A stretch of 64,000 nucleotides of DNA, taken from assembly GCF_020179605.1 (NCBI RefSeq), contig NZ_JAINZO010000004.1:1-64000 (forward strand), given 5' to 3'. Shown here one piece after another: positions 47,012-63,114 of this stretch (the first letter of the stretch is position 1; each line of letters begins with the position of its first letter). The position numbers were made by a program, and so were the translations under genes. The notes under the pieces are model-generated. The model saw only the letters and a list, made by a program, of their open reading frames with translations, made no database searches and was not told the DNA's origin. The DNA comes from Geomonas agri (lineage in GTDB: Bacteria; Desulfobacterota; Desulfuromonadia; Geobacterales; Geobacteraceae).

Positions 47012-48514
47012 ATGAGCGACAAGCGCCACCTGATACGATACCTGGTCCCCTCGATCGCCGACCAGCTCCTGGCAACGCTGCTCTGCGCGCTGTTCTTCAC
47101 CACCCCTTCCCTGTTGCTGCTCGACGGCGACACCGGCTACCACATCCGCGCCGGCGAGGAGATCCTGAGGACCCGCACCGTTCCCCTCTTCGACATGTTC
47201 TCTCAGCACACCCCGCCGCTGGCCTGGACCGCCCACGAATGGCTCGCGGAGGTGGTCATGGCCCTTTCGCACCAGGCTGCGGGGATGAGCGGCGTGGTCG
47301 CGCTGTACGCGCTGCTGTTGGTGTTGACCTTTTGGCTGCTGTTCAAGTGCCTGATCAGCTACCATACCGGCGTCCTGCCGGCGGTGGTCGCCACCATCGC
47401 CACCTTGACCTGCTCAATGCTGCACTGGCTGGCACGGCCGCACCTCTTTAGCTTCCTGTTCCTGGTCCTCTTTCACCACCTACTGGAGAACTGGCGCAGA
47501 AAGGGGGGGCGTTCGCTGTGGCTGCTGCCGCCGCTGATGCTGGTGTGGGCCAACCTCCATGGCGGCTTCGTGGCCGGATTCCTGCTGCTGGGCGCCTACC
47601 TGGCCGGCACGGCCGCAGGGATGGTCGGCACCAGCACCGAGGCCTGCCGCGCGGGCCGCGGCAAGCTAGTGCAACTGGCGGGCGTCATTGCCGCCTGCCT
47701 CGCCGCGACCATGATCAACCCATACGGGTGGCGCCTCCTGCTGTTCCCGCTCAAGCTGGTCTCGGACCGCTACCTGATGGACCACGTGGCGGAGTTCTTC
47801 CCCCCCGCCATCCACGGCTGGCCTCCATTCAACTGGCTGTTGCTGCTCCTGATCGCCCTCTTCGCCCTCTCCCCGAAAAAGGCCGAGCCGACCGAGCTGC
47901 TACTGGTGTTGGGTTTTGGCTACATGGCCCTCACCTCGGTGCGCTACATACCCCTGTTTAGCCTAGTCGCGGCGCCGGCGCTGGCTCTCCGGCTCGGCGC
48001 ATTACTGCACGGCGGCGGCAGGTGGGCCGGCGTGCTGCGCGACATCTCGGTCCGCCTCGCCCCCCTGGAGCAGTGCGCCCGCCCGCCACTGTGGGGAGCC
48101 GTGGCAGTCGCGGTGGTCACGGCAGCCGCAACCGGCGGCCTGGTGCGCCACTCGTTCGACCGGCGCCTGATGCCGGTGGATGCCTGCGAGTTCGTGTTGC
48201 GCCACCGGATCGCCGGCAAGGTGTTCAACAGCGACGAGTTCGGCGACTACCTGATCTACCGCGGCTATCCCGACTGCCGGGTTTTCATCGACGGGAGGCT
48301 GGACATGTACGGCGCGGAACGGCTGCGGGAATACAACGCGGTCATCGATTTCCGGCCGGGATGGGACCGGGTGCTGCAACGCTACGGCATCACCTGGATC
48401 ATCTTCGAGGCCGACTCCCGCTTTGCCAGGTTCCTGGAGCAACGGGGGGAATGGCAGCTGGTCTACCGGGACCAAGTCGCCAAGGTTTTCCAGAAAAAGC
48501 CCGTCACTCGTTAA
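47012..48514 (+). CDS. polytopic membrane protein of unknown function
   Basis: The start at MSDKRHLIRYLV is the first ATG in frame, though without a clear ribosome site; the protein is 500 residues. About ten membrane segments cover residues 10-385. An early external loop reads DGDTGYHIRAGEEILRTRTV with WTAHEWLAEV, a pattern seen in predicted GT-C-like membrane proteins. The C-terminal 110 residues are soluble (FVLRHRIAGKVFNSDEFGDY, CRVFIDGRLDMYG). It may be a glycosyltransferase of an unassigned family. It is separate from the tad operon by the hairpin at 46892. Confidence 0.7.
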   Translation: MSDKRHLIRYLVPSIADQLLATLLCALFFTTPSLLLLDGDTGYHIRAGEEILRTRTVPLFDMFSQHTPPLAWTAHEWLAEVVMALSHQAAGMSGVVALYALLLVLTFWLLFKCLISYHTGVLPAVVATIATLTCSMLHWLARPHLFSFLFLVLFHHLLENWRRKGGRSLWLLPPLMLVWANLHGGFVAGFLLLGAYLAGTAAGMVGTSTEACRAGRGKLVQLAGVIAACLAATMINPYGWRLLLFPLKLVSDRYLMDHVAEFFPPAIHGWPPFNWLLLLLIALFALSPKKAEPTELLLVLGFGYMALTSVRYIPLFSLVAAPALALRLGALLHGGGRWAGVLRDISVRLAPLEQCARPPLWGAVAVAVVTAAATGGLVRHSFDRRLMPVDACEFVLRHRIAGKVFNSDEFGDYLIYRGYPDCRVFIDGRLDMYGAERLREYNAVIDFRPGWDRVLQRYGITWIIFEADSRFARFLEQRGEWQLVYRDQVAKVFQKKPVTR

Positions 48515-48629
48515 GCCTTCCCCATCCGCCTCCGTCCGCCTCCGGAGAGCAGCACCGCACCCCCTTCAATTCCCCTCATTTCGGCTCATGATCACAGCGC
48601 GGAAAATGCCCTGCCAGCAACAAAACAGC

Positions 48630-48656
48630 TAAAGTAAGCGCCCCCATTGCCGATAC
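48630..48656 (+). promoter_or_regulatory. sigma-28 (FliA)-type promoter of the chemotaxis operon
   Basis: TAAAGTAA (48630-48637), 11 bases, then GCCGATAC (48649-48656). This fits the flagellar sigma-28 consensus TAAAGTTT-N11-GCCGATAA with 13 of 16 positions and the exact spacing. It lies 84 bases before the first start codon of the operon, in the 225-base gap after the membrane gene. Confidence 0.75.
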
Positions 48657-48739
48657 AGGCAATACGTGTAGAACATCGGTTGTAAATTTCCAACGAGAGG
48701 TTTGCCGCAAAAATAAACTCCCTGAAAGGGCAACAGAAA

Positions 48740-49054
48740 TTGGCCAAAAAAGTTTTTGCTAATAAAGCAAACATTATCATTGAAGGCCCCTTCACGGTAG
48801 AGCGCGCGGGGGAACTGCACCAGTTCCTCGTGGAGCGCCTCGACGGGGTGCCGGAGCAGGCGGGCCAGTCAACTATCGACCTCTCTCGGGTCGATGACAT
48901 TGATGCCTGCGGCTGCCAATTGCTCGCGCTTTTCCTGGAGAACCTGAAACGGCGGGGCACAACCCCAGTGCTCGCCGCAGCACCGGCAGCCGTGAGGGAC
49001 CGCATCAATACCCTCGGGTTCGGCGACCTGCTGGCGCTGCAACCCGGGCCGTGA
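48740..49054 (+). CDS. STAS-domain protein at the head of the chemotaxis operon
   Basis: The 104-residue protein starts at a TTG after AAAGGG; no ATG is available in frame near the fold start. A STAS fold is seen (IIIEGPFTVERAGELHQFL, STIDLSRVDDIDACGCQLLALF). The usual phosphorylatable Ser is present as the Cys/Gly position DACGC, so Ser is replaced. It may act as a docking or adaptor module for the signalling complex. It is 33 bases upstream of cheA. Confidence 0.82.
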   Translation: MAKKVFANKANIIIEGPFTVERAGELHQFLVERLDGVPEQAGQSTIDLSRVDDIDACGCQLLALFLENLKRRGTTPVLAAAPAAVRDRINTLGFGDLLALQPGP

Positions 49055-49087: not shown

Positions 49088-51139
49088 ATGACGACTCCCA
49101 GAGGGGAAAACGATACCGTCGACCTGAACCGCTTCAACCAAGTCTTCTTCGAGGAATGCGCTGAAAACCTGGCCGAGATGGAGCAGATCCTGATCTCGCT
49201 GGGCGACCGGGAACCAGACTCGGAGCAGATGAACGCGATCTTCCGGGCGGCCCACTCCATCAAGGGGGGGGCCGGGATCTTCGGCTTCAACGACATGACC
49301 GTGGTGACCCACGTCATGGAGTCCCTGCTGGACCGGCTCAGGAACCAGGAGACCCCCTTCGTACCGGGGATGATAGACCTCTTCCTCGAGGCCGGCGACG
49401 CCATCGCCATGCAGCTCGCCTGGCATCGCGAGGGGAAGCCGGTGGACCAGGAGGCCATCGACACCGTGCGCGCCAAGCTGCAGCAGGCCATCGCAGCCGA
49501 CGCCCCCGCCACCGAACTCGCCCCGGCCCAGGGAGATGGTATCCCCTTGCCGCATGAGGAAGAACTGCTGCCGCGCCGCTGCCGGCTCTCCTTCACCCCC
49601 GACCCCGAGATCTTCGCCCGCGGCATCCGGATGGAGAGCATCGTCTCCGAACTCGCCGAACTCACCGAGCCGGGTGAGTTGCACTGCCATGCCGAACTCA
49701 TGGAACTCCCCGAACTGGCCGAAGTCGACCCCGAGCGCTGCCTCACCCGCTGGGACTTCACCCTGCTCACCCGGGCCAGCCGCGAGCAGATCCTCGACGT
49801 CTTCATGTTCGTGGCGGACGAGGAACAACTCCAGATCGAGGAGGACGAGCCCGTGGACCGCCGCGTCCCGGCCGGCGAGCCGCTGCCCGTACAGGACGTC
49901 ATCCCTGCCGCCGGCAGGCGCGCCTACGACAACAACGAAGCCGCTCCCGGCGCCTACGGCAGGCGCGGCGGCGAGGCGGAATCGTCGATCCGGGTCAACG
50001 TCACCAAGGTGGACCAGCTGGTGAACCAGATCGGCGAACTCCTGATCACCCAGGCCATGCTGAGCCAGATCGCGGTGGGGCTCGACCCGATCCTGCACGA
50101 GACGCTGCAGAGGGGGCTCATTCAGCTGGAGCGCAACACTCGCGACCTGCAAGGGAGCGTGATGTCGATCCGTCTGGTGCCCATCAGCATCGTCTTCAAC
50201 CGTTTCCCCCGCCTGGTACGCGAGATCGCCGCCAAGCTGGGCAAGCAGGTCGAGCTGAAGACCGCCGGCGACAGCACCGAGCTTGACCGCGGGCTTATCG
50301 AAAAGATCGCCGACCCACTGGGACACCTGGTGCGCAACGCGCTGGACCACGGGCTGGAAACGCCGGAGAAGCGGGCCGCCTGTGGCAAGAGCCCGATGGG
50401 GACCCTACAGCTTTCTGCGTCCCAGGTCGGCGGCAGGATCGTCATTGACGTGATCGACGACGGCGCCGGGCTGAACCGGGACAGGATCCTCGCCAAGGCG
50501 ATCGAGTGCGGCATCCCCTGCTCCGAGACCATGAGCGACGAGGAGGTCTGGCAGCTTATCTTCGCCCCCGGCTTCTCCACCGCGAGCGAGGTGACCGACC
50601 TCTCCGGCCGCGGCGTCGGCATGGACGTGGTGCTCAAGAACGTCCAGGGTATCGGCGGCCGGGTCCAGATCGCCTCGGAAGCGGGCAAAGGGGCGCGTTT
50701 CACCATCAGCCTGCCGCTCACCCTCGCCATTCTGGAGGGGCTCTCGGTCGCCATCGGGGAGGAGAAGTTCATCATCCCCCTCAACGTGGTCATAGAATCG
50801 CTGCAGCCCAAGCCGGAGCAGTTGAAGAGCGTCAACGGCCGCGAGGTGGTCCAGGTGCGCGGGGAATACCTCCCCATCCTCAAGCTGCACCAGATCTTCA
50901 ACCTGGAGGCGGAGGTGACCGAGCCGCAGCGGGGGATCCTGGTGCTGGTGGAGGCGGACGGAGAGCGGGGGGCAATCCTGGTGGACGCCCTTTTGGATGA
51001 GCAGCAGGTGGTGGTGAAGAGCATCGAAACCAACTACCGACGGGTGGAAGGGAGCGCCGGGGCCACCATCCTGGGCGACGGGCGGGTGGCGCTGATCCTC
51101 GATCTACCCGAGCTGTTCGCGATGCACAAGAGGCTATAG
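49088..51139 (+). CDS. cheA: chemotaxis histidine kinase CheA
   Basis: The 683-residue protein starts after AGGAACTGGC. Domains in order: Hpt (residues 8-110, phospho-His56 in AHSIKGGAG), a second module with [16 protein letters not shown] and [15 protein letters not shown] (residues 155-265, a response-regulator-binding type), dimerisation helix ([18 protein letters not shown]), ATPase domain ([31 protein letters not shown]) and a CheW-like domain at the end ([15 protein letters not shown]). It phosphorylates a CheY-like regulator and CheB when receptors signal. Confidence 0.95.
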
Positions 51140-51162: not shown

Positions 51163-51687
51163 ATGCAGACGGCACACGGCAGTGCGGCAGAACAACTGAC
51201 AGCGGAGGGGGGGGCGGAATACCTCACCTTCACCCTGGGGGGCGAAAGCTACGGCATCGACATCCTCAAGGTGCAGGAGATCCGGGGGTACGACTGTGTC
51301 ACGCGCATCGCCAACACCCCGGCCTTTATCAAGGGGGTTATCAACCTGCGCGGGGTGATCGTCCCCATCGTCGACCTGCGCATCAAGTTCAACGTGGGCG
51401 AGGTCACCTACCACGAGTTCACCGTGGTGATCATCATCAACGTGCTGAACAAGGTGGTGGGGATCGTGGTGGACGGCGTTTCCGACGTGGTCGCGCTCCC
51501 CGCGCAGAGCATCAAGCCCGCTCCGGAACTCGGGGCATCACTGGACACCCGGTACATCACGGGGTTGGGAACCTTGAACGACGAGATGCTGATCCTGGTG
51601 GATATCGAAAAGCTGATCGGTAGCGACGAGCTGCAGATCGTTGACAGTACCGTGGAGAATACTCAGAAAGAGGCGGTGAACCTATGA
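51163..51687 (+). CDS. cheW: chemotaxis adaptor CheW
   Basis: The 174-residue protein begins after AAAGGAGAAGAGACATC. The CheW fold runs from residue 20 to 160: [40 protein letters not shown], and [14 protein letters not shown]. It links receptors to CheA. It overlaps the receptor gene by four bases (ATGA), so the two are made together. Confidence 0.94.
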
Positions 51688-53423
51688 AAACTGCGCGATT
51701 CAAAGACTGGAAGATTCTGACCAAGATCCTCAGCATCTCGGTAGCAACCATCATCATGATGGTGCTGGGCGTGATGCTCTACGTGCTCCCCTTCATGCAG
51801 AACAAGCTCATGGACGAAAAGATCCAGGCCACCAAGGCGGTGGTCGACGTGGCCTACGATGTCCTGATCTCGAACCAGAACGCGGTGAAGGAGGGGAAGA
51901 AAACCCTGCAGCAGGCGCAAACCGATGCGCTCAAGCAGATCTCCGAGATGAGATACCACGGTAACGAGTATTTCTGGGTCAACGACATGGACACCAAGGT
52001 GCTCATGCACCCGATCAAGCCGGAACTGGTTGGCAAAACCCAGTACGACAACAAGGATCCCAACGGTAAGCGGCTCTACGTGGAGTTCGTCAACGTCTGC
52101 AAGGAGAAAGGGGAAGGGGTCGTCGACTACATGTGGGCCAAGCCCGGCTCCACCGTCCCGGTACCGAAGATCTCCTACGTGAAGCAGATGAAGGAGTGGG
52201 GCTGGATCGTGGGGAGCGGCATCTACGTCGATACCGTCAAGGTGGAGATGGACAAGATGAAGTGGCAGATCATAGGTGGCACCGCGCTGCTCGCCGTGGT
52301 GATCTTCCTGTGCGCCTGGTTCGTGGCGCGCAAGATCAAGGAGGCGCTCGACCAGGCCATCGCGGCCTCCCGGCGTATCGCCTCGGGCGATCTCACCGCC
52401 CACATCACGGTAGACAGCGAGGATGAGACCGGCGAGCTGCTCGCCTCGCTCAAGGATATGAACGAGGGGCTGGCACACATCGTGGGCGACGTGAGAAACG
52501 GCGCCGAATCGATCGCCACGGCAACCGAGGAGATCGCAGCGGGCAACGCCGACCTCTCCCAGCGCACCGAGGAGCAGGCGAGCGCCCTGGAGGAGACCGC
52601 CTCCAGCATGGAGGAGCTCACCTCGACGGTGAAGCAGAACGCGGACAACGCCCAGGCGGCCAACCAGCTCGCCATCAACGCCAGCGGCGTGGCAGTCAAG
52701 GGTGGCGAGGTGATCACCCGGGTGGTGCACACCATGGAGAGCATCACCGACAGCTCCAAGAAGATCTCGGACATAATCGGCGTCATCGACGGTATCGCCT
52801 TCCAGACCAACATCCTGGCTTTGAATGCCGCGGTCGAGGCGGCGCGCGCCGGCGAGCAGGGCAGAGGCTTCGCGGTCGTCGCGGCCGAGGTGAGAAGCCT
52901 CGCCCAGCGTAGCGCCGCGGCGGCCAAGGAGATCAAGACCCTCATCGAGGACTCGGTGGCCAAGGTGCAGGACGGCAGCCGCCTGGTCGAGGAAGCCGGA
53001 CGCACCACCCAGGACATCGTCACCAGCATCAAGAGGGTGACCGACATCATGGCGGAGATTTCCGCCGCATCGCTGGAGCAGTCCAGCGGCATCGAGCAGG
53101 TCAACACCGCCATCACCCAGATGGACGACGTCACCCAGCAAAACGCAGCGCTGGTCGAAGAGGCGGCGGCCGCCGCCGAATCGCTCGAAGACCAGGCCCA
53201 GCAGCTGGTGGCGGTGGTGGCGCGCTTCACCTTGGAGCAGGGCCACAAGAGCGCCCCGCCGGCCCCAGCGGAGAAGCGCAAGCTGACCCACGCGGCGGCA
53301 CGCCCCAAGGTCTCCGAGAGGAAGACCAAACCCGTAGCGGTGGCGGCAGCTGCAAAAGCACAGGAACGTCTCTCCCGGTCCCCCGAGGCCGCCGAGCCGG
53401 ACGATGATTGGAAGGAGTTCTGA
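51684..53423 (+). CDS. methyl-accepting chemotaxis protein with Cache sensor
   Basis: The 579-residue protein has membrane segment 1 (residues 12-37), a single Cache_2 domain outside ([34 protein letters not shown]), membrane segment 2 (about 192-211), HAMP, and the MCP signalling hairpin ([20 protein letters not shown]). The C-terminus ends DDDWKEF, which fits the xWxxF pentapeptide that tethers CheR and CheB. Cache_2 receptors often sense organic acids. It starts at the overlapping ATGA of cheW. Confidence 0.94.
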
Positions 53424-54304
53424 GAACCGGAGCGCGCACGGAACCGGCGCGCCCCTTGACGGGAGGGGGAGGCGCCGCGGAACCGGGGTGGAACAACTTC
53501 CAGTATCCCTTCACCGCTGACGACTTCGCCCGCGTGCGCGGCTTCATCTACCGCAACGCGGGGATCTCCCTGGCGCCGGGCAAGATGGATATGGTCTACA
53601 GCCGGTTGGCGCGCCGGCTGCGGGCGACGGGGGTGGCCAGCTTCGGAGAGTATCTCGACCTCGTGGAAAGCGGCAATCTCCAGGAGGTGGAGGCGTTCAT
53701 CAACGCCCTGACCACCAACATGACCTCCTTTTTCCGGGAACCGCACCACTTCCGGTTTCTTGCCGAGCGCCTGCGCCAGTGCCGGGACCGCAAGCAGGTC
53801 ACCATTTGGAGCTGCGCTTCCTCTAGCGGCGAGGAGCCCTACTCCATCGCGATGACCGCGCTCGACGCGCTGCCGGCGGGGGCGAACCTCAGTATCCTGG
53901 CCACCGACATCGACACCAACGTGCTCGGCAGGGGAAGCGAAGGAGTGTACCCGGTGGACCAATTGCCCAAGATCCCGGAGCCGTACCGCAAGCGCTTCCT
54001 GCTCAGGGGGGAGGGGAACAACGAGGGGTTCATCAGGGTGAAGGAGGAACTGCGCCGGGTGGTGACCTTCAAGAGGCTGAACCTCTTGGACGAGCAGTGG
54101 CCCATGCGGGGCAAATTCGACTTCGTCTTCTGCCGCAACGTGATGATCTATTTTGACAGGCCGACACAGCTCGCCGTCCTGGAACGGATTTCCCGGGTAC
54201 TGCACCCGGACGGGCTTTTGTTCGTCGGTCATTCCGAAAGCCTGCACCACGCCCAGGAGCTGTTCCGGGTCTGTGGCAACACGACCTACGCCTTGAGGAG
54301 CTGA
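53408..54304 (+). CDS. cheR: chemotaxis methyltransferase CheR
   Basis: The start is uncertain: no ATG or GTG precedes the fold, and a TTG at 53408 (298 residues) or one near 53455 is used here; AAGGAG lies at 53412. The CheR N-terminal domain ([18 protein letters not shown]-like) is followed by the SAM-binding domain with [31 protein letters not shown] and [13 protein letters not shown]. It methylates receptor glutamates. It overlaps the receptor's end by 16 bases. Confidence 0.92.
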
Positions 54305-54306
54305 CG

Positions 54307-54891
54307 GTGCCGCACAAGAGTAAAACGGGAATGAAAAGCTCGGGGCATCCCGGCCATGCGAAGCTCAGCTACTTCGACCCGGAGTTCAAGATGGTCGCAG
54401 TCAAGATCGTGGCAGGGGAGTTCTTCGCCACCAACGAAGCCGTGGCCATCACCACCGTGCTCGGCTCCTGCGTCTCGGTATGTCTCTACGACCTGGAACT
54501 GGGCATCGGCGGCATGAACCACTTCATGCTGCCGGAGCTGCAGCAAGGTGGCAACTCCACCCCCTGCTCCGGAGCCTGCGACAGCAACTCACAAAGCTGC
54601 GCCCGCTATGGGGCATGCGCCATGCGCCGGCTGCTGGAACAGCTCGATCTGTTGGGGGCCAACCGCAAGCGCCTGGCCGCGAAGCTCTTCGGCGCCGGCC
54701 GGGTCATGCGGAGCAGTACCGACATCGGCGGCAACAATGTGGCCTTCGCCGTCGACTATTTGAAGAAACACGGGATACCGATCATCGCCTCGGACCTGGG
54801 GGAGTGCTGCCCCAGGAAGGTGATGTTCTTCCCCAAAACCGGCCGCGTCCTGGTGAAAAGGATACGCGTCCTGCACGCAGGAAGACATTGA
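54307..54891 (+). CDS. cheD: chemoreceptor glutamine deamidase CheD
   Basis: The 194-residue protein starts at a GTG two bases after cheR. The family core is present: ITTVLGSCVSVCLYD (nucleophile Cys) and GIGGMNHFMLP (His). A Cys-rich insert lies in the middle (NSTPCSGACDSNSQSC), unusual for CheD. C-terminal IASDLGECCPRKVMFF follows the family. It deamidates receptor Gln residues and helps adaptation. It lies directly before cheB. Confidence 0.9.
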   Translation: MPHKSKTGMKSSGHPGHAKLSYFDPEFKMVAVKIVAGEFFATNEAVAITTVLGSCVSVCLYDLELGIGGMNHFMLPELQQGGNSTPCSGACDSNSQSCARYGACAMRRLLEQLDLLGANRKRLAAKLFGAGRVMRSSTDIGGNNVAFAVDYLKKHGIPIIASDLGECCPRKVMFFPKTGRVLVKRIRVLHAGRH

Positions 54892-55977
54892 ATGCCCATA
54901 AAGGTGTTGATAATAGACGACTCCGCCCTGATCCGGTCGCTGCTGACCGAGATCATTAACAAGGCCCCGGACCTCCAGGTGGTGGGAACCGCACCGGACC
55001 CGCTGGCGGCCCGGCAACGCATCAAGGAGCTGAACCCGGACGTACTCACCCTGGACGTGGAGATGCCCAAGATGGACGGGCTCGCCTTCCTGGAAAAGCT
55101 GATGAGGCTGCGCCCGATGCCGGTGGTGATGGTTTCCTCGCTGACGGAGAAGAGTTCTGCCGTGACGCTGAAGGCGCTGGAACTGGGCGCCTTCGACTTC
55201 GTCACCAAGCCCAAGATTGACATCCGCAACGGGCTTTTGGAGTACTCCCAGGAGCTTGCCGAGAAAATCCGTTGCGCCCACAGCGCTTTCCGCAGGAGGG
55301 GGCCCCACATCCCTCCCCTGCAGGTGGAGGCGAAGCTCTCCGCGGATGCGGTGCTCCCCAACCGGCACCAGCACTTCTCCACCACGGAAAAGGTGGTGGC
55401 GGTCGGCTCCTCTACCGGCGGCACCGAGGCGCTCAAGGTCTTTTTGAGCGCGCTCCCCGCCGACTGCCCGGCCATACTGGTCACCCAGCACATGCCCGAG
55501 ACCTTCACCCGGACCTTCGCGGCGCGGCTGGACGGCCTGTGCGCCATGGCGGTCAAGGAAGCGGAGCACGGGGAGCGGGTGCTGCCCGGGCACGCCTACA
55601 TCGCGCCGGGCAACCGGCACATGATGCTCGCCCGCAGCGGTGCCAACTACACCATCGCCTTGGGCGACGGACCGCCGGTCTCGCGCCACCGCCCCTCGGT
55701 GGACGTGCTGTTCCGCTCCACCGCCAACTGCGCTGCGGACAACAGCCTGGGCATCATCATGACCGGGATGGGGGACGACGGTGCCGCCGGGATGCTGGAG
55801 ATGCACAACGCCGGCGCGAGGACCTTCGCCCAAGACGAGGAGAGCTGCGTCGTATTCGGCATGCCGCGCGAAGCGATTGCCCGCGGGGGAGTCGACGAGG
55901 TGGTCCCGCTCTCCGACATGGCGGGACGCCTGATGGGATGGCTCGCCTCCCACGGCAAGCGCAGTTTCAGGGTGTGA
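54892..55977 (+). CDS. cheB: chemotaxis methylesterase CheB
   Basis: The 361-residue protein starts right at the end of cheD. The receiver domain has Asp55 ([12 protein letters not shown]) and the effector domain has the catalytic triad: Ser174 in [10 protein letters not shown], His200 in TQHMPETF and Asp296 in [10 protein letters not shown]. It removes methyl groups from receptors when phosphorylated by CheA. Confidence 0.95.
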
Positions 55978-56011: not shown

Positions 56012-57807
56012 GTGAAGTTCCTTAACGCAGCACGCGAAAAGATATCCATCCCCCTCGTCATAACCGCGGTGATAGTGGCGGTGGTGATGATGGTGGGGAA
56101 CCACCTCATGCTGGACCAGATCCACGAGGAGGCGGTGCGCCAGGCCAACCGGCAGCAGGAAAACAGCATGATGGCCTTCTGGGAACTGATGAACCGTCGC
56201 GGGCGCAACTTCCACATCGAGAACGGCAGGATGATCCTGGGCGACTACTACACCCTGAACGGCGCCAACGAACTGACCGACAAGATCTTTTGCACCACCG
56301 GCAGCAGGGCCACCATCTTCATGGGCGACACCCGGGTGGCCACCAACGTACTCAAGGAGGACGGCACCAGGGCCATCGGGACCAAGCTTACCGGCCCGGC
56401 CTACGACGCCATCTTCAAGGAGGGGATCCGGTACCGCGGCGAAGCGAACATCCTGGGCGCTCCCTACTTCACCGCCTACGACCCGGTGCGCGACCTCTCC
56501 GGCAAGGTGATCGGCGCACTCTTCGTGGGAGTAAAGCAGAGCGAGTACCTGGCGCGTTACGACCGCATCAACGTGAAGATCGGTGCCATCAACGGGGCGC
56601 TGGCCGCGGTTTTCCTGCTCTGCGTCATCATCCTGGGCCTGAACCGCAAGCGCGCCGAGAACGACATCAAGAGACAGCTGAATTTCCAGCAGCAGCTCAT
56701 GGACACCATCCCAAGCCCCATCTTCTCCAAGGACGCGCAGGGGCGCTACAACATGTGCAACAAGGCATTCCAAAGCTACGTGGGGCTCAGCAGCGAACAA
56801 CTGCTGGGACGTTCGGTGTTCGATCTGTGGGAGCCTGAGCTGGCCCGGAAGTACCACGAGATGGATCAGGCGATCATAGACGCACCCGGAATCCAGATCT
56901 ACGAATCCCAGGTGACCTACGCCGACGGCAGCGTGCACGACGCTATCTTCCACAAGGCGGCGGTCCGCGACGACAACGGCGTGGCCCAGGGGCTGGTCGG
57001 AGTGATCCTGGACATCACCGAGCGCAAGGCGGTCGAGCAGGAAAGCCGCCACATAGAGGCACAGAAGCACCACTCACGCATGATCGAGTCACTGATGATC
57101 CAGTTGAACCACGACCTGAACACGCCGCTTACCCCGCTGTTCGCGCTTATCCCCATGATCCGCGCCAAGGTGAGCGATCCGGGCCTAGAAAGGATGCTGG
57201 AGATCTGCCAGCAGTGCGTAAACCAGATCCAGGGGCTGGCCGGCAAGGCGCTCGACCTGGTACGGATCTCGTCCAGTCGTCCCCGTTTGATCCCGGTCAG
57301 CCTTTGTGCCGCGGTCGAGGGTGCCCTCAGTGAGTTGGCGCCGGCCTTGGCGCAGCGCGGGGTGATCTGCTGCAACGCGATTGCCGCAGACCTCCAGGTA
57401 CTGGGATCGGCGGAACAGCTCACACTCTTGTTCAAGAACCTGCTCAGCAACGCCGCGCGCTATGCCGCCAACAACGGCAAGGTGATCATCAGCGCCGAAC
57501 TGAAGGACGAGGAGGTCGAGGTATCGGTGCAGGACGACGGCGTCGGGCTCGACCACGAACAACTGAGCCAGGTCTTTGATGAGTTCTACAAGGCCGACCC
57601 CGCCCGCCACGACCTGAACACCCAGGGGCTGGGGCTGGCCATCTGCCGCAGGATCGTGGCCAACCACGAGGGGAGGCTCTGGGCGACGAGCCCCGGAGCC
57701 GGGCGCGGTACGACCATGTTCTTCACCCTGAAACAGGTGGGGCACCAGCCGCCGGCCATCGACGAAGACGAGCTGTCTCAAGAAAATAACCCGGAGAGCG
57801 ACCAGAC

Positions 57808-57811
<4 letters not shown>
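56012..57811 (+). CDS. Cache/PAS sensor histidine kinase
   Basis: The 599-residue protein uses a GTG start after GGGAGAAGAAC. Membrane segment 1 (residues 12-32), an external Cache domain of the Cache_3/Cache_2 kind (TTGSRATIFMGDTRVATN, VIGALFVGV), membrane segment 2 (about 190-210), a PAS domain (225-345), a dimerisation domain with His367 (QLNHDLNTPL) and an ATPase domain (FKNLLSNAARYAANNG, LGLAICRRIVANHEG) follow in order. It is four-base overlapped with the next kinase. It probably feeds the lone receiver or the chemotaxis circuit. Confidence 0.9.
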
Positions 57812-59837
<2,026 letters not shown>

Positions 59838-59841
<4 letters not shown>

Positions 59842-60230
59842 ATAGACGGGTAATGATCGTAGACGACAACGAGTACGTCAGGGCATCGGTGGACATCATC
59901 TGCGAATCGGCGCAGCTGGAACTGGCCAGTGCGGCCAGCGGGCACGAGTGCATCGAGCAACTGGAGGCGGGATTCCGGGGCGTCATCCTGATGGACATCA
60001 TGATGCCCGAAATGGACGGCTGGGACACGATCAGGGAGATGGTGGACCGGGGACTGTATCCGGGCAACATCATTGTCATGCTGACCGGCATGGGCGAGCC
60101 CGATGCCAAGATGGACGGGCTCCAGGAATACGTTTCGGACTACATGACCAAGCCCTTCGGCCCGGACGAGCTGCTTGATTCCATCGAGTACTACCTCACC
60201 CTGCTCAACGCCCCGACCGGCCATGACTAA
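59838..60230 (+). CDS. stand-alone response regulator receiver
   Basis: The 130-residue single receiver domain has VMIVDDNEYV at the N-terminus, the phosphorylated Asp53 in LMDIMMPEMDG and Thr/Lys in MLTG and TKPFGPDE. There is no output domain, so it works like CheY or as a phosphate shuttle. It overlaps both the kinase before (ATGA) and the CheB-like gene after (8 bases). Confidence 0.92.
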
Positions 60231-60789
60231 GAATGTCGTGGTCATAGCCGTCTCCACGGGGGGGCCGCTGACGCTCAAGGCGCTCTTCAGGGAACTCCCG
60301 CCACTGGATGCCGCCTTCCTCATCGTGCTGCACATCACGCCCGAGATGGACTACCGCATCGCCCAGGGGCTGAACGCCGCAGCGTCGATGCCGGTCAAGC
60401 TGGCCGAAGACGGCGAGTACCTGAAAAGCGGCCACGTCTACATGGCGCCGGGGGGACTGCACCTCCAGCTGACCGGCAACAACCGGGTGGTCCTGTGCGA
60501 GGGGCCGCGCATCAACTACGTGCAACCGGCTGCGGACGTCACCATGCTCTCGCTGAGCAAGCCGCTCAAGGGGAAGCTGATCGGAATCGTGCTGACCGGC
60601 ATGGGGCGCGACGGGGCCGACGGGATCAAGCACATCCACGACCTCGGCGGCATCACCATCGCCCAGGACCAGCAGTCCTCCACCATCTACGGCATGCCAA
60701 AGGCTGCCGCCCAGACCGGTGCAGTGGACTACGTCCTCCCTCCCCAGAAGATCGCCGGCAAGCTGATGGAATTGCTTGCCCCGCTCTGA
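60223..60789 (+). CDS. CheB-type methylesterase domain without receiver
   Basis: The 188-residue protein starts inside the receiver gene (GGCCATGACTAAG). It has only the esterase domain with a complete triad: Ser11 (VSTGGPLTL), His37 (LHITPEM) and the Asp of TGMGRDGADG. Lacking the receiver lid, it may be constitutive or be regulated by the free receiver encoded just before. It is a second CheB-like enzyme in the same operon. It faces the LysR gene. Confidence 0.9.
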   Translation: MTKNVVVIAVSTGGPLTLKALFRELPPLDAAFLIVLHITPEMDYRIAQGLNAAASMPVKLAEDGEYLKSGHVYMAPGGLHLQLTGNNRVVLCEGPRINYVQPAADVTMLSLSKPLKGKLIGIVLTGMGRDGADGIKHIHDLGGITIAQDQQSSTIYGMPKAAAQTGAVDYVLPPQKIAGKLMELLAPL

Positions 60790-63055: not shown

Positions 63056-63114
63056 GTACTCAAGTTCCTGTCGTGCCTGCCGATAAAAGCCTCAGAAGTC
63101 AGGAGGAACACGGC

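Follow-up and report, generated by a model that had tools for sequence, protein, structure and literature searches.

In E. coli and Salmonella, the chemotaxis genes are late flagellar genes and their operons are transcribed by RNA polymerase carrying the flagellar sigma factor FliA (sigma-28), for which the consensus is TAAAGTTT-N11-GCCGATAA. According to the accessible part of the work by Tran et al. (2008; PMC2577667), among the major che clusters of three Geobacter species only the alpha cluster of G. sulfurreducens is preceded by a sigma-28 site, and a sigma-54 site precedes cluster 1 of G. metallireducens. Martin et al. (2006), cited in the available text of PMC2577667, reported for Rhodobacter sphaeroides that both sigma-28 and sigma-54 control chemosensory operons.

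The locus described here lies on a window of 64,000 nucleotides, i.e., the whole stretch of Geomonas agri DNA that was analyzed. A sequence-only reading had proposed that a sigma-28 promoter with 13 of 16 consensus matches and the exact FliA spacing drives a chemotaxis operon, and both letters and gap were found as stated: positions 48630-48656 of the forward strand read TAAAGTAA-N11-GCCGATAC, with the -35 element at 48630-48637, the -10 element at 48649-48656 and three mismatches to TAAAGTTT-N11-GCCGATAA. The site thereby combines TAAAG(T) and CCGAT(A) at a distance of about 11 nt, as is typical of FliA promoters. It is located in an intergenic gap of 225 bases, downstream of a gene that ends at 48514, and is separated by 83 nt from the TTG start codon of a STAS-domain gene at 48740. 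FliA-RNA polymerase would be expected to bind here and to initiate near 48663. We regard it as very probable that the site is a genuine FliA promoter, which places the operon STAS-cheA-cheW-mcp-cheR-cheD-cheB in the late flagellar regulon and which most likely took the place of a sigma-54 promoter in the ancestor of the genus.

The genes downstream of the site are closely packed and all encoded on the forward strand. The STAS-domain protein (48740-49054; Pfam STAS_2/STAS), the TTG start of which corresponds in alignments to an ATG or GTG of close relatives, is followed by CheA (49088-51139), for which orthologs were found, and CheW (51163-51687), both assigned by domain and model matches. Next is a chemoreceptor (51684-53423) with an sCache_2 sensor, a Tsr-like signalling part and the C-terminus DDWKEF, and then CheR (53408-54304), CheD (54307-54891) and CheB (54892-55977), each assigned by a domain match. 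An sCache/PAS histidine kinase (56012-57811), which follows cheB also in those genus loci that have enough flanking sequence, a GAF hybrid histidine kinase with a receiver (57808-59841), a stand-alone receiver domain that is not closest to flagellar CheY (59838-60230) and another CheB methylesterase domain, which lacks a receiver (60175-60789, true start probably after 60175), complete the operon. This terminal part, 56012-60789, recurs in relatives within the genus, and its genes might possibly provide a two-component input into adaptation. The likeness to E. coli and Salmonella thus concerns the -35/-10 consensus with its gap of 11 nt and the treatment of chemotaxis genes as late flagellar genes. 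Unlike in these species, the operon starts with a STAS gene and lacks a flagellar CheY and CheZ, and the flagellar-type cheY forms a separate FliA-marked unit. It also differs from cluster 1 of G. metallireducens, reported in the available text of PMC2577667 to be preceded by a sigma-54 site, in being marked by sigma-28.

Judged by its letters alone, the site is moderate and not outstanding. Two matches with at most three mismatches occur in the window compared with 0.09 expected from shuffled sequence; the other one, at 63060-63086 (14/16 letters, two mismatches), lies inside a same-strand ORF of 195 aa just after an MFS gene. The 13-letter core TAAAGT-N13-GCCGATA has three exact matches in the whole genome and none for the reversed control pattern, and with up to one mismatch there are 19 compared with one for the reversed pattern. 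Both strands of 427,938 bases of the own genome, in which flagellar and che regions are over-represented, were searched with an independent matrix that was derived from other genes of the genus, using 14 distinct FliA-type sites; the site obtained 16.0 bits, corresponding to rank 12 in these 427,938 bases. Four of the 19 near-matches lie upstream of unmistakable chemotaxis genes (the STAS operon, one cheW and two receptor genes), and the other 15 have no recognised chemotaxis or flagellar gene downstream, with one of these located before a receiver gene, one before a 119-aa protein without known family and the remaining 13 in or near other genes. One exact core match, G000:C1:1594784 on the minus strand, lies between NUDIX and SNF2 genes with no motility gene found there, and it is probably due to chance.

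The moderate score within the own genome would also be compatible with a chance resemblance at 48630-48656. What exceeds chance is the conservation within the genus, the named members of which include Geomonas and Citrifermentans. All 18 orthologous loci examined have the motif upstream of the STAS gene; it agrees with the consensus in 12-14 of 16 letters, compared with a mean of about 10 in shuffles, starting 108-187 nt upstream of the STAS match and with a gap of 11 nt in 17 loci and of 12 nt in L045. TAAAG in the -35 element and CCGA in the -10 element never vary among the 18, and the spacer sequence drifts. When the 400 nt upstream were shuffled, a score as high as that of the actual site arose in 0 of 40 cases at 16 loci, in 1 of 40 at L041 and in 3 of 40 at L045, and shuffles of 850 nt reached it in 0 to 2 of 40 across the 18 loci, with 1 of 40 at the locus of the window. 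Conservation above background was thus found in 18/18 loci within the genus and was absent outside of it, and a chance match, on account of the retention of the motif by all orthologs, is rejected as very improbable. As the upstream neighbour gene of the window is present in some genus loci and missing in others, the promoter element appears to move with the operon.

The genome encodes FliA (286.9 bits compared with a cut-off of 189.6), as do 37 of the 48 family genomes. A CheA match at E 1e-180 is present in 25 family genomes, 24 of which also encode FliA, a co-occurrence that is dominated by one genus and that counts G017 by its paralogs only; the exception, G015 (85% complete), possesses the operon and gave no match in the FliA search, and 13 FliA-positive family genomes are without this CheA. 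FliA-type sites were furthermore found in front of other late flagellar and chemotaxis genes. Upstream of the flagellar-type cheY such a site is present at 19 of 20 loci and in all 19 genus genomes, with a gap of 12 nt in 11 of the 19 and the single miss being a second copy in G017. In the genome of the window this cheY lies about 5 kb from fliF, and the nearest solved relatives of its product are mostly flagellar CheYs. Another cheW-cheA unit, located at C2:523 kb in this genome, carries the site at 19 of 21 loci, again in all 19 genus genomes, the two loci without it being the paralogs L244 and L245. Flagellin is represented by the divergent gene C2:307048 (39.4 bits to Flagellin_N), upstream of which TAAAGTTT-N12-GTCGATAT was found; a family search at E 1e-30, which gave a Flagellin_N match in only 3 of 19 genus genomes, missed this gene, and the three canonical flagellins of relatives have sites with 15/16 letters in two cases and 13/16 in one. 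A FliA-type site also precedes a pair of genes which we take from their sequence to be flbD and motA. Since FliA itself is encoded and cheY, cheW-cheA, flagellin and flbD-motA carry these sites, the operon would be part of a typical FliA regulon. The part of the sequence-only reading that placed the operon under flagellar control is thereby strongly favored by comparative evidence, i.e., by the 18/18 orthologs, the FliA gene and the sites in the regulon, so that dependence of its expression on FliA is to be expected.

Some FliA-type sites were found next to genes with no assigned role in motility. L065 (C1:1920512, minus strand) encodes a protein of about 119 aa that matches no Pfam or NCBIfam family, and a similar-looking protein with a FliA-type site is encoded at L093 in another genome; both may represent a candidate new motility gene. 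A protein judged by eye to be TPR-like is preceded by a FliA-type site in two genomes (G000:C2:281772 and L102).

Between the promoter and the STAS gene a second conserved block (TAACAHYGGTTG-like) is located at 48671-48682 of the forward strand, starting 14 nt past the -10 element. At least 11 of its 12 letters are retained by 15 of the 18 genus orthologs; the block is absent from the three most diverged genus loci and, in the own genome, present once in 427,938 bases. In some relatives it is palindromic, e.g., AACAACGGTTGTT in L035, and it may act as an operator in the leader. The conservation of the block, its rarity elsewhere and the fact that it starts with TATAAC in several relatives could also be read in favor of at least two promoters, with FliA boosting expression and the block or an unseen site setting a basal level, by which the operon would not be strictly tied to flagella. 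We consider this rather unlikely: a sigma-70-like pair near the operon start was rejected, as none occurs in 48450-48800, the distance between the block and the FliA -10 element varies from 10 to 20 nt across the genus loci and no -35 element at a fixed spacing was seen by eye. A known RNA family in this region was rejected as well, as no Rfam family matched within 48500-48900.

Under the FliA promoter, the operon would be co-regulated with the separate flagellar-type cheY, the other cheW-cheA unit, receptors, motA and flagellin, so that the components of the array would be made once the flagellar regulon switches on and CheY would be supplied in trans. That its output would be the flagellar motor is suggested by the receptor, the cytoplasmic part of which aligns with E. 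coli Tsr with no gap between the HAMP region and residue 525. The receptor ends in DDWKEF, which, judged by eye, may resemble the CheR-tethering pentapeptide NWETF. In the available text of Tran et al. (2008; PMC2577667), the Tsr-type (36H) class is the one expected in E. coli-like flagellar chemotaxis. With the Type 1 'E. coli-like' clusters of Geobacter described in the same text the locus has in common a Tsr-like (36H) receptor, with a C-terminus that might likewise be a CheR tether, and a location apart from flagellar genes; as the cluster is without an obvious flagellar CheY, only the receptor class is assigned to this type. Motility with peritrichous flagella was described for four species of the genus, and others were described as mostly non-motile (PMC6773877, as far as accessible).

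The alternative is that the operon is controlled by FliA and acts on a non-motor target, being produced only in flagellated cells. In its favor, the operon contains no flagellar CheY: outside CheB and the hybrid kinase its only receiver is that at 59838-60230, which resembles other response regulators and has 3cg4, not a flagellar CheY, as best solved match. The operon additionally codes for two further kinases and another CheB methylesterase, and the genome contains eight CheA genes with conserved FliA sites at only two of them. None of the six remaining CheA regions, five of which span 20 kb and one 16 kb, contains a site with 13/16 letters, the best by core (11/12) lying on the minus strand at L248 and pointing away from the che genes. 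A second STAS-cheA pair, G000:C1:2345761, has FliA sites of at most 11/16 letters in the 3.7 kb upstream. The possibility that the operon contains the sole FliA-marked CheA was rejected, as the second cheW-cheA unit carries a site. A non-motor target nevertheless appears improbable to us, in view of the Tsr-like receptor, of CheA and CheW, which fit E. coli-type models best, although below the curated cut-offs, and of the flagellar-type cheY near fliF, which has the same type of promoter. The claim that the operon serves flagellar motility and not pili or another output therefore stands in part. Its first half is favored by the receptor; its second half does not follow, since the second cheW-cheA unit is also FliA-marked, the operon has no obvious flagellar CheY of its own and the orthologs elsewhere are apparently driven by sigma-54. 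That the operon serves neither pili nor another output is no more than plausible.

Outside the genus, the region upstream of the orthologous operon was evaluated for both promoter types over the 850 nt immediately upstream of cheA, at 30 loci outside and 20 loci inside the genus. A sigma-54 site was defined by GG at -24 and GC at -12, 10 nt apart, in the context TTGGCAC-N5-TGC and close upstream of the first gene. The 30 outside loci comprise 21 orthologs, 20 of them by tree and L145, in which cheA is split over two frames and which is in no tree, by gene order, and nine members of a paralogous clade. Duplicates, loci with short DNA before cheA (such as L117, L118, L132 and L154), partial or other-phylum loci (L150 and L173) and beta- and gammaproteobacterial loci were excluded, and the counts contain dependent entries, as L123 and L147 are from one organism and L119 and L139 are near-copies. 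A predicted sigma-54 site with a score of at least 10/13 is present at 17 of the 30 loci outside the genus and at none of the 20 inside; by orthology these are 17 of 21 true orthologs (L115, L119-L122, L124-L127, L139, L142, L147, L164 and L197-L200), with L116, L123, L128 and L145 below 10, and none of the nine in the paralogous clade. When the opposite strand of these regions was scored, 10 was reached at 3 of 30 loci outside and 0 of 20 inside. Most of the sites read TTGGCAY-N5-TGCW or near it, and at 14 of the 17 loci the first listed ORF follows after 28-53 nt; the exceptions are L120 (137 nt) and L142 and L197, for which in-frame starts are listed at distances of 4 and 2 nt.

The FliA score showed the opposite distribution, reaching at least 12 at 1 of 30 loci outside compared with 18 of 20 inside the genus. 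No comparable FliA site was found in the 21 orthologous operons outside the genus, and up to 3 kb upstream of cheA none of 25 outside loci (16 true orthologs) has a site with at least 13/16 letters and a core of 11/12, by which control by FliA throughout the family is rejected. The two CheA genes of G017, L027 and L028, lack the motif and fall into the paralogous clade, and are therefore left out of the ortholog count. When 40 CheA sequences were placed in a tree rooted on the paralogous clade, the 15 FliA-bearing rows form one clade (100/100) that is nested within larger groups (95/92 and 100/98) containing sigma-54-bearing rows; a tree of 54 rows agrees. Some branches, including L026 and L200, were flagged as long by the tree program. 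Five of the 17 sigma-54-bearing loci are from genomes encoding FliA (G022, G029, G030, G031 and G033), so that absence of FliA is not the reason for the sigma-54 sites in these five.

From this distribution it is most likely that the ancestor of the genus exchanged a sigma-54 promoter for a sigma-28 promoter, and did so once. In its full form, with an ancestral sigma-54 promoter kept in Geotalea and other Geobacteraceae, a single swap to sigma-28 at the base of Geomonas/Citrifermentans and a shift from the middle to the late tier under a maintained core gene order, we consider the scenario probable. As fliA itself was predicted to be controlled by RpoN in G. sulfurreducens (PMC2725144, accessible part), the replacement would put the operon one tier later within the same cascade. 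The situation is similar to that in R. sphaeroides, for which PMC2577667, as far as available, also reports chemosensory operons split between both sigma factors; in that case two operons of one species are concerned and here orthologous operons of different genera. Neither the sigma-28 site nor its replacement is mentioned in the literature searched, which was mostly non-subscription and included the available parts of PMC2577667, PMC2725144, PMC2700814, PMC2996986, PMC6773877 and PMC3930126.

The finding extends that of Tran et al. (2008), whose accessible text places a sigma-28 site before a single major che cluster across the three Geobacter species. The sigma-54 sites in the sister genera would make the locus a clear natural example of one promoter class giving way to another while the operon itself is conserved. 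In a Geobacteraceae genome with eight CheA systems, the predicted link of this one to the flagellar regulon would help to tell which array steers swimming.
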